Shown here one piece after another: positions 29,009 to 37,083 of a stretch of 64,000 nucleotides of DNA. The translations under genes and the position numbers were made by a program. Position 1 is the first letter of the stretch. Every line of letters starts with the position of its first letter. Under the pieces are notes generated by a model. It did no database searches. It had not been told where the DNA came from and saw nothing but the letters and a program-made list of their open reading frames with translations. This stretch comes from Cellulosimicrobium protaetiae (GTDB taxonomy: Bacteria; Actinomycetota; Actinomycetes; Actinomycetales; Cellulomonadaceae), in the NCBI RefSeq assembly GCF_009708005.2, contig NZ_CP052757.1, forward strand, positions 2,914,001 to 2,978,000. Direction: 5' to 3'.

Positions 29009-31036
29009 TCAGACCTGGACGCGGTCGCGGACGGCCGTGACGATCCGCTCGACCGCCTCGGCGACGGGCACGCCGTTCTCCTGGCGCCCGTCGCGGTACC
29101 GGAACGACACGGCGCCGCCCTCGACGTCCTCGCCGCCCGCGATGAGGACGAACGGCACCTTCTGCGTGCTCGCGTTGCGGATCTTCTTGCCGAAGCGGTC
29201 GTCGGAGTAGTCGACCTCGGCGCGGATCCCCTGCGCGCGCAGCTGCGCGACGACGTCCGCCAGGTAGTCGTTGAACGGCTCCGCGACCGGGACCGCGATC
29301 ACCTGGACGGGCGCGAGCCACGCCGGGAACGCCCCCGCGTAGTGCTCGAGCAGCACCGCGAAGAAGCGCTCGATCGAGCCGAACAGCGCCCGGTGGATCA
29401 TCACGGGGCGCTGGCGCGTCCCGTCCGCAGCCGTGTACTGGAGGTCGAACTTCTCGGGGAGGTTGAAGTCGAGCTGGATCGTCGACATCTGCCACGTCCG
29501 CCCGATCGCGTCCTTCGCCTGGACCGAGATCTTCGGGCCGTAGAACGCCGCCCCGCCCGGGTCGGGCACCAGGTCGAGGCCCGACGCGGTCGCGACCTCC
29601 TCGAGCGTGCGGGTCGCCTCCTCCCACGTCGCGTCGTCACCCACCGACTTCTCGGGGTCGCGCGTCGAGAGCTCCAGGTAGAAGTCGTCGAGCCCGTAGT
29701 CCTTGAGCAGGTCCAGCACGAACGTCAGGAGCGACGTGAGCTCGTCGCGCATCTGCTCGCGCGTGCAGTAGATGTGCGCGTCGTCCTGGGTGAAGCCGCG
29801 GGCGCGCGTGAGCCCGTGCACGACGCCCGACTTCTCGTACCGGTACACCGTGCCGAACTCGAACAGGCGCAGCGGCAGCTCGCGGTACGAACGGCCGCGC
29901 GCGTCGAAGATGAGGTTGTGCATCGGGCAGTTCATCGGCTTGAGGTAGTAGTCCTGCCCCGCACGCTTGACGTTGCCCTCGTCGTCGATCTCCTCGTCGA
30001 GGTGCATCGGGGGGTACATGCCCTCGGAGTACCAGTCGAGGTGACCCGACGTCTGGAAGAGCTTCGCCTTGGTGATGTGGGGGCTGTTGACGAACGAGTA
30101 GCCCGCCTCGACGTGACGCCTGCGCGAGTAGTCCTCCATCTCCATGCGGACCATCGCGCCCTTGGGGTGGAACACGGCCAGCCCCGAGCCGATCTCCTCC
30201 GGGAACGAGAAGAGGTCCATCTCGGCACCGAGCCGCCGGTGGTCGCGGCGCTCCGCCTCCGCGAGACGGTCGAGGTACGCCTTGAGCTCGTCCTTCGTCG
30301 GCCACGCCGTGCCGTAGATCCGCTGGAGCTGGGGGTTCTTCTCGCTGCCCCGCCAGTACGCCGCCGCGGAGCGCATGAGCTGGTAGCCGTTGCCGATGAG
30401 TCGCGTGCTCGGCAGGTGCGGGCCGCGGCACAGGTCCTTCCAGACCACGGTCTCGCTCTCGCGCCCGGCGCCGCGCACGTTGTCGTAGATCGTCAGCTCG
30501 CCGCCGCCGACCTCGACGCTCGCGCCCTCGGTGTCGTCGGCCGCACCGCCCTTGAGCCCGACGAGCTCGAGCTTGTACGGCTCGTGGGCGAGCTCGACGC
30601 GCGCCTCGTCCTCGGTCACGACCCGGCGGCGGAAGGTCTGGCCCTCCCGGACGATCCGGGACATCGCCTTGTCGAGGGCCTTGAGGTCCTCGGGCGTGAA
30701 CGGCGTCTCGACGTCGAAGTCGTAGTAGAACCCGTCGGTGACGGGCGGGCCGATGCCGAGCTTCGCGTCCGGGTTGACCTGCTGGACGGCCTGGGCGAGG
30801 ACGTGCGCGGCCGAGTGCCGCAGCACCGCGAGCCCGTCGGGCGAGTCGATGGTCACGCCCTCGACGACGTCGCCGTCGACGACCGGGGTGTCGAGGTCCT
30901 TGAGGACGCCGTTGACGCGGATCACGACGACGTCGCGACGAGCGGCGAACAGGTCCGTGCCCGTCGTGCCCGCCGTCACCGTGGTCTCCTCGGCCTCGAG
31001 GGTGATGGTGAGGGGTGACGAGACGACGTCAGACAC
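29009..31036 (-). CDS. thrS: Threonyl-tRNA synthetase
   Basis: 675 residues. An N-terminal TGS domain, an editing domain with [12 protein letters not shown], and a class II core with motif 2 [32 protein letters not shown] and motif 3 ([31 protein letters not shown]) are seen, then the anticodon-binding domain. GTG 31036 has GGAG 7 nt upstream. A hairpin terminator separates it from the small gene upstream. I see no T-box leader. Confidence 0.97.
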
Positions 31037-31169: not shown

Positions 31170-31349
31170 TCAGTCGTTGTGCTCCTTGGCCTTCTCGGCC
31201 ACGGTGTCGACGTGCTGGTCGACCGAGTCCGGCGCGACCGACTTGATCTTCTCCGCGACGTCGTCGATCCGCTCGTCGGTGAGGAACTCCTTCGCCTTGC
31301 CGAGGAGGTCGCCGAGACCCCCCTCGCTCTTCGGTGTCTGCTCGCTCAT
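31170..31349 (-). CDS. Small Rv0909-like antitoxin-family protein
   Basis: 59 residues, very hydrophilic: starts [21 protein letters not shown] and ends [10 protein letters not shown]. The pattern [11 protein letters not shown]...[31 protein letters not shown] resembles the actinobacterial Rv0909 antitoxin family, whose members are often found without a toxin. A GGAGGGA site precedes ATG 31349. No toxin gene is adjacent; the divergent HTH gene lies 160 bp away. Antitoxin activity is therefore only a family label. Confidence 0.8.
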
Positions 31350-31496: not shown

Positions 31497-31502
31497 CACA
31501 AT
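31497..31502 (+). promoter_or_regulatory. -10 box, leaderless start of HTH gene
   Basis: CACAAT ends 7 nt before ATG 31510, with no Shine-Dalgarno sequence. Confidence 0.45.
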
Positions 31503-31509
31503 CGTCGCC

Positions 31510-31953
31510 ATGGACGACGACGTGGCACCCGGCGAGCGGACCGCACGAGTCTTCCGCCGCCGGCTCAACGAGCTCTTCGCCCGGGGTCGTGGCGGACGCC
31601 CCGTGACCAACCGCGAGGCCGCGCAGTGGATGACCGAACGCGGGTACTCCATCAACGAGGCCTACCTCAGCGCGCTCCGCGGCGGCCACCGCTCCTCGCC
31701 GAGCCTGCGCGTCGTCGAGGGCATCGCCGCGTTCTTCCACGTCAGCACCGGCAGCCTCGTCGACCCCGAGGAGGACCCCGACGCCCGCCTGCGAGCCGCG
31801 CTCGCCGACGAGGGCGTCGAGCAGTTCGCGCTCCGCGCCCAGGGGCTGTCCCCCGAGAACGTCCGGGCGATCATCGAGATCGTGGACCGCGTGCGACGCC
31901 TGGAGCACCTTCCCCCCGTGACCCCGCCCACGCCGGACGACGACCGTGGATGA
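31510..31953 (+). CDS. XRE-type helix-turn-helix regulator
   Basis: 147 residues. The HTH region VTNREAAQWMTERGYSINEAYLSALRGGHRSSPSLRVVEGIAAFFHVSTGSL (residues about 35-85) has the XRE layout, ending in the usual choice of partner region. A helical C-terminal part (SPENVRAIIEIVDRVRRLE) may dimerise. Gene overlap with the HEXXH peptidase gene makes it likely that the peptidase cleaves or controls this regulator, as in the ImmR/ImmA and DdrO/IrrE pairs. That relation is inference from family precedent. Confidence 0.85.
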   Translation: MDDDVAPGERTARVFRRRLNELFARGRGGRPVTNREAAQWMTERGYSINEAYLSALRGGHRSSPSLRVVEGIAAFFHVSTGSLVDPEEDPDARLRAALADEGVEQFALRAQGLSPENVRAIIEIVDRVRRLEHLPPVTPPTPDDDRG

Positions 31954-32350
31954 CCTCCTGCGCGCCGCGGGACTGGACCGCGCCCGCAGCATCGAGGAGG
32001 CGTGCCGCCTGGTCGCCGCGGTGCGCGGCCGCCCCCTGGAGGTCGTGGAGGGCGACCTCGGACCCGGCGTGTCCGGGCTCTGGCTGGCCTTCCCCGAGCG
32101 TGACCTCGTCCTCGTCGACGCCCGCCAGACGCTCCCTGGGCAGCACCGCGACCACGTCGTCGCGCACGAGCTCGTCCACGTCCTCGAGGCCGTCGGCGCC
32201 ACGACGGCGGCGCCCGTCGGTGCGTGCCGGGACGGTCACCGGGACCCCGGCGAGCTGCGCGTCGAGCGCCTCGCGAGCGAGCTCATGATCTCCATCGCGT
32301 CCCACGGCAGCTCCGCCACACGGCTCACCTCCCTCGAGCTGTACCGGTGA
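31946..32350 (+). CDS. ImmA/IrrE-like metallopeptidase
   Basis: 134 residues. The zinc motif HELVH (VVAHELVHVLE, residues about 71-81) is the HEXXH signature, with a helical C-terminus (ELRVERLASELMIS) that can supply the third ligand Glu. The protein is short, as expected for ImmA/IrrE enzymes without extra domains. GTG 31946 overlaps the HTH gene by 8 bases, and its stop overlaps the next gene by GTGA, so the three are one translational unit. Confidence 0.8.
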   Translation: MDDLLRAAGLDRARSIEEACRLVAAVRGRPLEVVEGDLGPGVSGLWLAFPERDLVLVDARQTLPGQHRDHVVAHELVHVLEAVGATTAAPVGACRDGHRDPGELRVERLASELMISIASHGSSATRLTSLELYR

Positions 32351-33435
32351 GCCACGCCTTCGGCGTCCTCGCCGTGGCGCTCTTCGCCACGGCGTCCGCC
32401 TGGACGGGGCTGCGCGCCCGCACCGGCGCCGACGCGGCGCTGCCGCTCGGGCTGGGGTTCGTCGCGCTCGCGTCCGCGTTCCGCGTCCCGGCCGCGGCCG
32501 AGCTGCTCAAGACCTGGGCGCCCGCGGGGACGCACGAGGTCGCCAAGCACGTCGCGCTCGTCACCGGATGCCTGTTCGTCGGGGTCTGGGCGTACGGCGC
32601 CACCACCGGCCGCGCCCCGCGCACGCGGTACGTGGCGCTCGCGGCCGTCGCCGTCGGTGCCGCGATGGTCGCGATCGCGGTCGTGAGCGGCCCGTGGACC
32701 ACGCACGACCTCGACGCGCAGGTACGGGACCGGCCACTCATGTGGGGCTACTGGGCGCTCTACTACGGGACGTTCGTGGCGGCGACGGCGACGTTCGCCG
32801 TCTCGTGCGTCCGCACGCGCTCGCAGCGACCCGTGCGACTGCGCTGGGGGATGGACGTCGCGGCCGCGGGCGCGGTCGTCGCCGTCGGGTGGGCGGTGGT
32901 GAGCTTCGTGGCGATGGTGCAGCACGAGCCGGGCAGCACCGAGCCGTACCTCGTCCTCGGCCTGCGGACGCGCTACCTCGTGCTCGCGGCGAGCGTCCTG
33001 CTGACGGTCGGCATCGTGGGACAGCTCGCGTCGTCGGCGGCGTTCGCGCGCGAGCGCCGCCGTGACCTCGGCCACCTCCACGCCTTCCTCGCCACGGCCG
33101 TGGGCGACGGCGGGCTGCGCGGGTCGAGCGCCGCCGTGGACGAGTACCACCGCACCATCGAGATCCTCGACGGCCTGGCCGCGCTGGCCCTCCACTCCCG
33201 CCGGGACGACGTGGACCACGTGCGGGTCGCCGTGCCGGGCAGCCCGCGCGAGGTGATCCTCGCCTACCAGCTCCAGGTCGCGGCGACCCGACGTGGCCGC
33301 GGTGACGCGCCGAGCGCCGAGCCGGACGACTGGTCGGGGCTGCTCGCCGACGACGACGCGCTGCGGAGGCTCGGACGCGCGCTGCGCGACCGCACGAGCC
33401 GGGAGGCGACCGTCCGGGTGCTGGAGGGGGTCTGA
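32347..33435 (+). CDS. Seven-helix membrane protein (MAB_1171c/DUF6545-like)
   Basis: 362 residues. Seven hydrophobic segments fill residues about 1-235, including VLAVALFATASAWTGL, HVALVTGCLFVGVWAYGA, YWALYYGTFVAATATFAVSCV and YLVLAASVLLTVGIVGQLA. A soluble C-terminal domain of about 130 residues follows, rich in His/Arg/Asp (DEYHRTIEILDGLAALALHSRRDDVDHV). The topology resembles the MAB_1171c family named as putative transporters, which occur with XRE and ImmA/IrrE genes. Transport is not supported by any motif I can see; a sensor role is equally plausible. Confidence 0.75.
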   Translation: MSHAFGVLAVALFATASAWTGLRARTGADAALPLGLGFVALASAFRVPAAAELLKTWAPAGTHEVAKHVALVTGCLFVGVWAYGATTGRAPRTRYVALAAVAVGAAMVAIAVVSGPWTTHDLDAQVRDRPLMWGYWALYYGTFVAATATFAVSCVRTRSQRPVRLRWGMDVAAAGAVVAVGWAVVSFVAMVQHEPGSTEPYLVLGLRTRYLVLAASVLLTVGIVGQLASSAAFARERRRDLGHLHAFLATAVGDGGLRGSSAAVDEYHRTIEILDGLAALALHSRRDDVDHVRVAVPGSPREVILAYQLQVAATRRGRGDAPSAEPDDWSGLLADDDALRRLGRALRDRTSREATVRVLEGV

Positions 33436-34020
33436 GTCACGCCGCCGTGGCTCGACGCCAAGCTCCCCCTGCGCGCTTGGCCCCGCGCCGAGCCTCGGCC
33501 GGCGGGGCTCAACCTACAGACAGACTCTCCGGGGCGCAACACGCCTTACAGTTGAAATCTCAACGGTCCGTGGCGATTCGCGCGGCCGTCCGCGGCGTCC
33601 GGCAGGGTGGCGGTGAGGCACGCCTCGCGGCACGCTCGGAGGTCGTCGCGGATCCGAGGAGCGCGAGCCCTGCGCTCGTCCCGGTCGCTCGGGATGCCGC
33701 TCCGCATCGCCGCGCGCAGGGTGCGCCACCCTGCCACGACGGCGCCATGTCGGCATCTCCGAAACCACCTCGTCCCCCGATCCTCGATCACCACCGGGCC
33801 GTGCGCGAAGCCCTACCCTTCGACGACGGCCGCTGGCTCCGATTCGACGCCGACCGCACACGGATCTCGCGAGGAGCCGCCTCATCCACCGGGCCGGCGC
33901 CCTCGTACGCTCCCCTGACGCGCCCCGCAGGTGCCCAGAGCCGGTTCGCGGACCTTCATGGGCAAAGCGAGAAGGCCCCCCGAGCTCAGCGATTCGCTGG
34001 TCGGAGGGCCTTTCGAGAGG
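33436..34020. other. 585-bp region without a confident gene
   Basis: Between the membrane protein and tRNA-Val this stretch has lower GC than its surroundings in parts. It holds the dyad GTTGA-AATC-TCAAC at 33553-33566, and two weak reading frames: 33546-33794 on the minus strand (82 codons, good G+C at third positions only in its middle) and 33747-34118 on the plus strand, which runs antisense through the tRNA. Neither resembles a family I know. A tRNA terminator occupies 33972-34012. Confidence 0.6.
33972..34012 (-). terminator. Terminator of tRNA-Val(CAC)
   Basis: A 12-bp stem with one mismatch (33972-33983 with 34001-34012) lies 9 bp beyond the tRNA 3' end, with an inner CAGC/GCTG stem. 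TCTCGCTTTG follows on the minus strand. Confidence 0.75.
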
Positions 34021-34021
34021 G

Positions 34022-34093
34022 TGGGCGATACTGGGTTCGAACCAGTGACCTCTTCGGTGTGAACGAAGCGCGCTACCACTGCGCCAATCGCCC
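34022..34093 (-). tRNA. tRNA-Val (anticodon CAC)
   Basis: 72 nt cloverleaf: acceptor GGGCGAT/ATCGCCC, D-arm GCGC/GCGC, anticodon stem CTTCG/CGAAG with loop TTCACAC, T-arm ACTGG/CCAGT. Discriminator A; CCA is not encoded. A TAGTAT promoter box lies upstream at 34112-34107. Confidence 0.97.
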
Positions 34094-36344: not shown

Positions 36345-36417
36345 GCGGATGTGGCTCAGTTGGTAGAGCATCACCTTGCCAAGGTGAGGGTCGCGGGTTC
36401 GAGTCCCGTCATCCGCT
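36345..36417 (+). tRNA. tRNA-Gly (anticodon GCC), copy 1
   Basis: 73 nt: acceptor GCGGATG/CATCCGC, anticodon stem TCACC/GGTGA with loop TTGCCAA. Discriminator T; no encoded CCA. Identical in sequence to copy 2. Confidence 0.98.
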
Positions 36418-36465
36418 CGGAGGCCCACTCCCCGACCGCCCTCGCGGCGGTGGGGAGCAGGTCGC

Positions 36466-36536
36466 GGTGGAGTGGCCGAGAGGCGAGGCAGCGGCCTGCA
36501 AAGCCGTATACGTGGGTTCGAATCCCATCTCCACCT
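36466..36536 (+). tRNA. tRNA-Cys (anticodon GCA), copy 1
   Basis: 71 nt: acceptor GGTGGAG/CTCCACC, anticodon loop CTGCAAA, T-arm GTGGG/CCCAT (ends G-T). Discriminator T. Identical to copy 2. Confidence 0.97.
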
Positions 36537-36557
36537 CGCAACAGCACCACCCCTTTG

Positions 36558-36629
36558 GGGCGATTGGCGCAGCGGTAGCGCGCTTCCCTGACACGGAAGA
36601 GGTCACTGGTTCGATCCCAGTATCGCCCA
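36558..36629 (+). tRNA. tRNA-Val (anticodon GAC), copy 1
   Basis: 72 nt: acceptor GGGCGAT/ATCGCCC, anticodon stem CTTCC/GGAAG with loop CTGACAC. Differs from tRNA-Val(CAC) only in the anticodon arm and single bases of the D and T loops. Confidence 0.97.
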
Positions 36630-36637
36630 CGAGCACT

Positions 36638-36679
36638 CGCGAGAGGCCGCCCCGGCACCGTCCGGAGCGGCCTCTCGCG
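36638..36679 (+). terminator. Terminator of first tRNA cluster
   Basis: Perfect 13-bp stem CGCGAGAGGCCGC/GCGGCCTCTCGCG with a 16-nt loop, 8 bp after tRNA-Val copy 1. Confidence 0.75.
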
Positions 36680-36727
36680 TGCCGACCATCACCCGGACCG
36701 GATGCACGGTCCTGGCCGGAAGTCGGC

Positions 36728-36733
36728 TAGTAT
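36728..36733 (+). promoter_or_regulatory. -10 box of second tRNA cluster
   Basis: TAGTAT about 50 bp before tRNA-Gly copy 2; no clear -35 hexamer. Confidence 0.5.
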
Positions 36734-36783
36734 GTGCTTCGCGCCGGATCGTCGGAGGGTTCTCACCCTCGAAGACCGGCCGC

Positions 36784-36856
36784 GCGGATGTGGCTCAGTT
36801 GGTAGAGCATCACCTTGCCAAGGTGAGGGTCGCGGGTTCGAGTCCCGTCATCCGCT
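36784..36856 (+). tRNA. tRNA-Gly (anticodon GCC), copy 2
   Basis: Same 73-nt sequence as copy 1. The shared flanks (CGCG before, TCGGAGGCCCACTC after) show that the duplication included spacer DNA. Confidence 0.98.
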
Positions 36857-36912
36857 CGGAGGCCCACTCTCTGGCCTGCTCCTTCAGGAGCATGAGAGAG
36901 GACGCGTCTCAA

Positions 36913-36983
36913 GGTGGAGTGGCCGAGAGGCGAGGCAGCGGCCTGCAAAGCCGTATACGTGGGTTCGAATCCCATCTCCACCT
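36913..36983 (+). tRNA. tRNA-Cys (anticodon GCA), copy 2
   Basis: Same 71-nt sequence as copy 1. Spacers on both sides have diverged from those of copy 1. Confidence 0.97.
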
Positions 36984-37006
36984 CGCATGCAGTGCAGCAT
37001 CACCCC

Positions 37007-37078
37007 GGGCGATTGGCGCAGCGGTAGCGCGCTTCCCTGACACGGAAGAGGTCACTGGTTCGATCCCAGTATCGCCCA
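37007..37078 (+). tRNA. tRNA-Val (anticodon GAC), copy 2
   Basis: Same 72-nt sequence as copy 1. It ends the second Gly-Cys-Val cluster. Confidence 0.97.
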
Positions 37079-37083
37079 CCAGC

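Follow-up and report, generated by a model that had tools for sequence, protein, structure and literature searches.

The stretch of DNA analyzed here is a 64,000-nucleotide window from Cellulosimicrobium protaetiae (contig NZ_CP052757.1, positions 2,914,001 to 2,978,000 of a 4.78-Mb genome), and the element in question is a set of three plus-strand open reading frames (ORFs) that spans window positions 31510-33435. The first ORF (31510-31953, 147 amino acids (aa), ATG start) is predicted to encode an XRE/helix-turn-helix (HTH) regulator of the EspR family, the second (31946-32350, 134 aa, GTG start) a minimal metallopeptidase of the ImmA/IrrE type (M78) with the sequence HELVH at residues 74-78, and the third (32347-33435, 362 aa, GTG start) a seven-helix membrane protein related to MAB_1171c/DUF6545. 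An earlier note on this DNA had described three genes that overlap by 8 and 4 bases, and these coordinates and overlaps were reproduced exactly. All 7 named Cellulosimicrobium loci retain the 8-base overlap between the HTH and peptidase genes.

Predicted properties of the three proteins

The HTH protein has no Pfam match. When it was compared with the PDB by phmmer, residues 13-133, a range that includes the C-terminal part, matched chains of the homologous protein EspR from Mycobacterium tuberculosis (Rv3849) with an E-value of 1e-11, and a profile built from 23 HTH relatives matched the same chains at 2e-43. The rows that followed EspR in the profile search were a transcriptional regulator (9sf2, 7e-10), an immunity repressor (2e-6), SinR (3e-5), and DdrO (9e-4 and weaker). 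Judged by its sequence, the HTH protein is a member of the EspR family, with near full-length homology over both the N-terminal HTH and the C-terminal part, and its identity to the mycobacterial homologs is 36-40%. EspR itself differs in having been characterized as an ESX-1 regulator that is associated with the nucleoid, and EspR oligomers bind DNA chromosome-wide. No peptidase or receptor partner of EspR was found in the titles and abstract beginnings of the literature searched.

At residues 107-109 of the window HTH protein, 9 of 23 aligned rows of the EspR-like family read A-L-R, with Arg present in 22 of 23. The DdrO loop that enters the active site of PprI is formed by E116, L117, R118, and G119, according to the available part of PMC10904395. 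A common cleavage site at A-L-R was considered from this comparison and is treated as a lead only because mycobacterial EspR carries A-A-R.

In the peptidase, H74, E75, H78, E103, and E107 are invariant across 42 of 42 aligned sequences. G44 and W46 are further invariant positions. The HEXXH zinc motif and a downstream glutamate are present in the sequence, and the assignment of the zinc-binding glutamate is presumptive. The PF06114 score of the window peptidase (12.5 bits, E = 0.13) is below the gathering score of 22 bits, and the best PF06114 E-value among the 42 aligned relatives was 7.8e-5. The assignment to the ImmA/IrrE type made in the earlier note agrees with the predicted structure, which has the N-terminal-type fold of IrrE that is also that of CapP. 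The peptidase ends at residue 134 and aligns with residues 18-158 of IrrE (243 residues in the chain), so that the C-terminal GAF-like domain of IrrE is absent. In PprI, this domain takes part in activation by single-stranded DNA, as described in the available part of PMC10904395. Because the window peptidase lacks it, the input to this enzyme should arrive from elsewhere. In one genome of the same family, positions 11-1051 at a contig end encode a serine recombinase (PF00239, PF07508) in frame with the second half of the peptidase gene; this fusion reflects either an element inserted in the peptidase gene or a chimeric assembly.

The predicted structure of the third protein contains seven membrane helices and a soluble C-terminal part, as the earlier note had proposed, with a seven-transmembrane (7TM) domain at approximately residues 1-235 and a cytoplasmic helical domain at approximately residues 236-362. 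The NF042915 profile (MAB_1171c family) matched residues 8-328 (68.1 bits, E = 6.7e-19) at less than its curated score of 100 bits, and DUF6545 (PF20182) matched residues 238-347 below its curated cut-off; NF042915 was matched at E ≤ 0.01 by 49 of 49 aligned membrane homologs. Residues R235, E272, and D275 of the membrane protein are invariant. On these profile matches, the membrane protein is a divergent relative of the MAB_1171c family, whose loci hold the same peptidase.

The NCBIfam name of this family is "MAB_1171c family putative transporter," and a Mycobacterium abscessus MAB_1171c mutant forms ∼50% less biofilm, the authors of that study terming it a transport gene (PMC8707978, in which no transport assay appeared in the part available). 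The membrane protein might on this basis be a transporter or an enzyme, with the HTH-peptidase pair just controlling its expression much as substrate-controlled repressors do; the lipid enzyme ACER3, an alkaline ceramidase, ranked second in a Foldseek search with the predicted structure (E = 0.05). No transporter was found among the best 50 of 704 Foldseek matches, however, and 48 of these 50 were receptors or microbial rhodopsins, as were 50 of 50 among re-aligned matches (50 of 1000 taken). The long seventh helix, which continues into the cytoplasmic domain, would also fit a sensor better. We therefore consider a transporter or enzyme unlikely. The apparently receptor-shaped 7TM part gives the protein the sensor-like appearance that the earlier note had supposed and makes the name "putative transporter" doubtful, in contrast to the role by which the family is known.

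Conservation and co-evolution of the gene set

The membrane protein was found in 11 of 17 genomes of the genus and in 1 of 42 further relatives, and 68 of 296 genomes of the class contain an NF042915 match. From the listed NF042915 matches, 60 loci were fetched by our own choice, and they are a non-random sample. In 57 of the 60, the end of an ORF with a HEXXH motif falls in a range from 161 nucleotides (nt) upstream to 3 nt downstream of where the membrane match begins; among 96 control genes (300-450 aa) taken from these loci, 2 had such an ORF, 1 of them abutting. A previous control, in which 54 of 54 membrane genes had a peptidase and 45 abutted it, was circular because its loci had been pre-selected for having a peptidase. 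The two loci L062 and L063, which have no peptidase, are marginal short matches; in L066, the order is permuted to membrane protein, HTH protein, and peptidase, and the membrane gene of L051 contains an in-frame TGA. Without these four, 56 parsed loci remained.

The exact 4-base overlap of the peptidase and membrane genes was present in 36 of the 56 parsed loci, a count that takes the start codon closest to the peptidase stop and is thus biased toward short overlaps. In 42 of the 56 loci, an EspR-like HTH gene occurs no more than 2.6 kb from the pair; it is upstream in line in 29, convergent downstream in 10, and downstream in line in 3. The other 14 contain no profile-detectable EspR-like HTH, and 13 of these are from the family that we label f35.

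Conservation was also searched from the HTH protein, using the best 80 named loci among 381 relatives, which were selected irrespective of their partners. The peptidase-membrane pair is beside the HTH gene in 61 of the 80, and the two genes overlap by 4 bases in 59 of the 61 (again with the start closest to the peptidase stop). Of the remaining 19 loci, one contains the membrane gene at the end of a contig and 18 have neither partner in the retrieved DNA, 2 of these 18 being uninformative because their locus DNA ends early. The order HTH-peptidase-membrane occurs in 7 of 7 Cellulosimicrobium, 5 of 5 Oerskovia, and 2 of 3 Gordonia loci, the first two genera being soil bacteria. In the other 47 loci, nearly all labeled mycobacteria, the pair is tail-to-tail with the HTH gene.

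In these loci, the HTH protein is EspR; an example from locus L060 matched the PDB EspR chain end to end with an E-value of 1e-66. EspR was present in 118 of 118 mycobacterial genomes and the membrane gene in 62 of them, one marginally. When 63 of the 66 mycobacterial membrane matches were compared (two weak ones and one fragment were omitted, and a second, paralogous set in one genome was counted), 62 were oriented convergently to an EspR-like match, their aligned ends being separated by 11-388 nt. The pair was absent from the retrieved locus DNA of species that include M. triplex, M. genavense, M. simiae, M. celatum, and M. shimoidei. Among the sampled mycobacteria, EspR thus exists without the pair, and the pair is hardly ever apart from an EspR-like gene.

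When the window genes were compared with those of the 7 named Cellulosimicrobium loci, the ratio of nonsynonymous to synonymous substitution rates was 0.04-0.08 for the HTH gene, 0.13-0.21 for the peptidase gene, and 0.14-0.20 for the membrane gene. These ratios suggest purifying selection on each of the three genes, strongest on the HTH gene. In a mirror-tree comparison, distances correlated between the membrane protein and peptidase (r = 0.86, 55 loci), the membrane and HTH proteins (0.74, 41 loci), and the peptidase and HTH protein (0.76, 41 loci). Within family f35 alone, where one genome may hold several sets, r was 0.91 for the membrane protein and peptidase (23 loci) and 0.80 for each of the other two comparisons (10 loci; best permutation 0.79). 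Each of these correlations was higher than any obtained in 2000 permutations. The earlier note had named a chance neighborhood as the outcome that would count against the triad; the 57 of 60 loci versus 2 of 96 controls, together with the correlated distances, rule this out, and the neighborhood search supports the triad as a conserved unit in other actinobacteria.

Genomic context in the window and in relatives

Upstream of the HTH gene, a candidate −10 element, CACAAT (31497-31502, plus strand), lies 7 nt 5' of the ATG. In an alignment of 11 upstream regions (the window, 7 Cellulosimicrobium, and 3 Oerskovia), this site reads CACAATC in 7, GACAATC in 3, and CAGAATC in 1. As a −10 element, it would yield a leaderless HTH transcript; a scan for the sigma-70 consensus returned 0 promoters. 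A terminator scan was likewise without result, and an operator search found GC-rich inverted repeats, none of them demonstrably conserved.

The neighboring ORFs, recognized by eye, include a thrS-like gene (29009-31036, minus strand) and genes for a HIT protein, an aminotransferase, and a pabB-like protein; the genes downstream look metabolic, and tRNA genes are present, with tRNA-Val downstream of the triad at 34020-34093. Between thrS and the triad, and divergent from the HTH gene, is a 59-codon gene resembling the MT0933 antitoxin (31170-31349, minus strand; PF14013, E = 0.0023, under the cut-off). Similar ORFs adjoin thrS in members of the genus without the triad too. A cluster of tRNA-Gly, tRNA-Cys, and tRNA-Val occurs in two tandem copies at 36345-37081, and two further PF06114 loci are found elsewhere in the genome. 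Cellulosimicrobium relatives within the genus that lack the triad carry ∼4-5 kb of different DNA between thrS and tRNA-Val (loci L193, L196, and L198), and we therefore regard this slot as a variable site.

Like ImmR/ImmA of ICEBs1, DdrO/IrrE (PprI), and CapH/CapP, the triad combines an XRE-type regulator with an adjoining M78 HEXXH peptidase, and the predicted fold of the peptidase is the same; cleavage of the regulator is the expected output (PMC10233336 and PMC10904395, in the parts available). Both the HTH neighbor and the peptidase fold are typical of the IrrE/DdrO and ImmR/ImmA pairs, and the triad could be read as a similar DNA-damage or mobile-element switch with the membrane gene as a passenger. 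We consider this reading very improbable. The flanks appear housekeeping-like by eye, the peptidase lacks the GAF-like domain, and, in loci found via the membrane gene, the peptidase is partnered more constantly by that gene than by the EspR-like HTH. Control of a mobile element, which the earlier note had mentioned for such pairs, was not borne out by neighbors that look like thrS, tRNA-Val, and metabolic genes; no phage or integrative and conjugative element genes were recognized nearby by eye, though the slot varies in the genus. The triad differs from these known systems in its near-constant overlapping 7TM partner, its EspR-family regulator, its peptidase without a C-terminal sensory domain, and the lack of recognized mobile-element or DNA-repair genes beside it.

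The occupation of the variable slot by other genes in triad-less genomes would also fit a toxin-antitoxin or abortive-defense unit, with the HTH protein as antitoxin and the peptidase or membrane protein as toxic effector. In PADLOC, the HTH protein weakly matched capH (E = 5.6e-4) and the peptidase weakly matched capP (E = 0.036), and an ImmRA-type pair carries a database label of toxin-antitoxin (PMC10233336, available part). The membrane protein had no PADLOC match, however, no gene for an effector of cyclic-oligonucleotide-based antiphage signaling (CBASS) or of another kind was recognized by eye among the neighbors, and both the purifying selection and the stable synteny with EspR in about half of the sampled mycobacteria argue against such a unit, making it quite unlikely. 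An anti-phage system was considered and set aside, its support being limited to the capH and capP matches.

In relatives, other genes accompany the pair. One similarity group lies 3' of the membrane gene, or overlaps its end, in 11 of the 56 parsed loci. All 8 members that were scanned resemble PAP2 lipid phosphatases, with E-values from 0.0085 to 6e-7 and one score that exceeds the gathering threshold. A second group, mostly of ∼470 aa, is 3' of the membrane gene in another 11 loci, at once in 8 of them, and both scanned members resemble flavin adenine dinucleotide (FAD)-dependent oxidoreductases. Neither gene accompanies the window set, but in the relatives these neighbors hint that the signal or the output may involve lipid or isoprenoid chemistry. 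A subgroup of f35 (L092, L096-L103, and similar loci) mostly has a HELWH peptidase and no profile-detectable EspR-like HTH, followed by genes of the FAD-dependent oxidoreductase group, and perhaps couples the same receptor-peptidase core to another output.

A possible membrane-to-DNA switch

Based on the constant pairing of the 7TM protein and peptidase, the sensor-stripped form of the peptidase, and the way in which ImmR/ImmA, DdrO/IrrE, and CapH/CapP are known to work, we consider it somewhat probable that the three proteins are co-produced as a membrane-to-DNA switch in which the 7TM protein senses, the peptidase executes, and the DNA-bound EspR-like protein is the target. The gene anatomy, conservation, co-evolution, HTH family, and intact catalytic motif on which this reading draws were observed directly, and the peptidase and 7TM folds come from predicted structures. 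With its N-terminus outside, the receptor-shaped helix bundle of the 7TM protein would meet an external or membrane-borne ligand. Given the PAP2-type and FAD-enzyme genes located after the pair in many relatives, we guess this ligand to be a lipid or isoprenoid. The cytoplasmic helical domain would bind the small peptidase and hold or gate it, consistent with a peptidase gene nearly always joined to the 7TM gene and often, it would seem, translationally coupled to it. A change in signal, in whichever direction, would let the peptidase cut the EspR-like regulator, probably in its C-terminal dimerization part, and the cut regulator would leave the DNA, changing expression of its targets, probably including its own operon. 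A known membrane sensor with a gluzincin that removes a DNA-bound repressor resembles this arrangement, but there the functions reside in one chain, whereas the triad uses separate genes.

The recurrence of triad relatives across actinobacteria suggests a switch controlled by a membrane signal. More tentatively, these systems may form a bacterial signaling class of their own, in which a 7TM protein with a receptor fold relays an outside or lipid signal to an ImmA/IrrE-type peptidase, a separate cytoplasmic protein that in turn destroys a nucleoid regulator of the EspR family. In mycobacteria, EspR would then be the output of such a receptor, or a descendant of one, kept in that arrangement in about half of mycobacteria and acting elsewhere as a stand-alone nucleoid protein. 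No description of the triad was found in the literature searched by title and abstract beginning, a weak negative given that most subscription papers were outside its scope. The analysis joins three sets that have been treated separately, namely EspR, the ImmA/IrrE peptidases, and the uncharacterized DUF6545/MAB_1171c membrane proteins. The membrane family gains a testable role as a sensor instead of a transporter, and EspR gains a candidate partner peptidase and a candidate input. The triad also offers an example of regulated proteolysis in which neither kinases nor second messengers may be needed for a receptor-shaped 7TM protein to drive a soluble peptidase.
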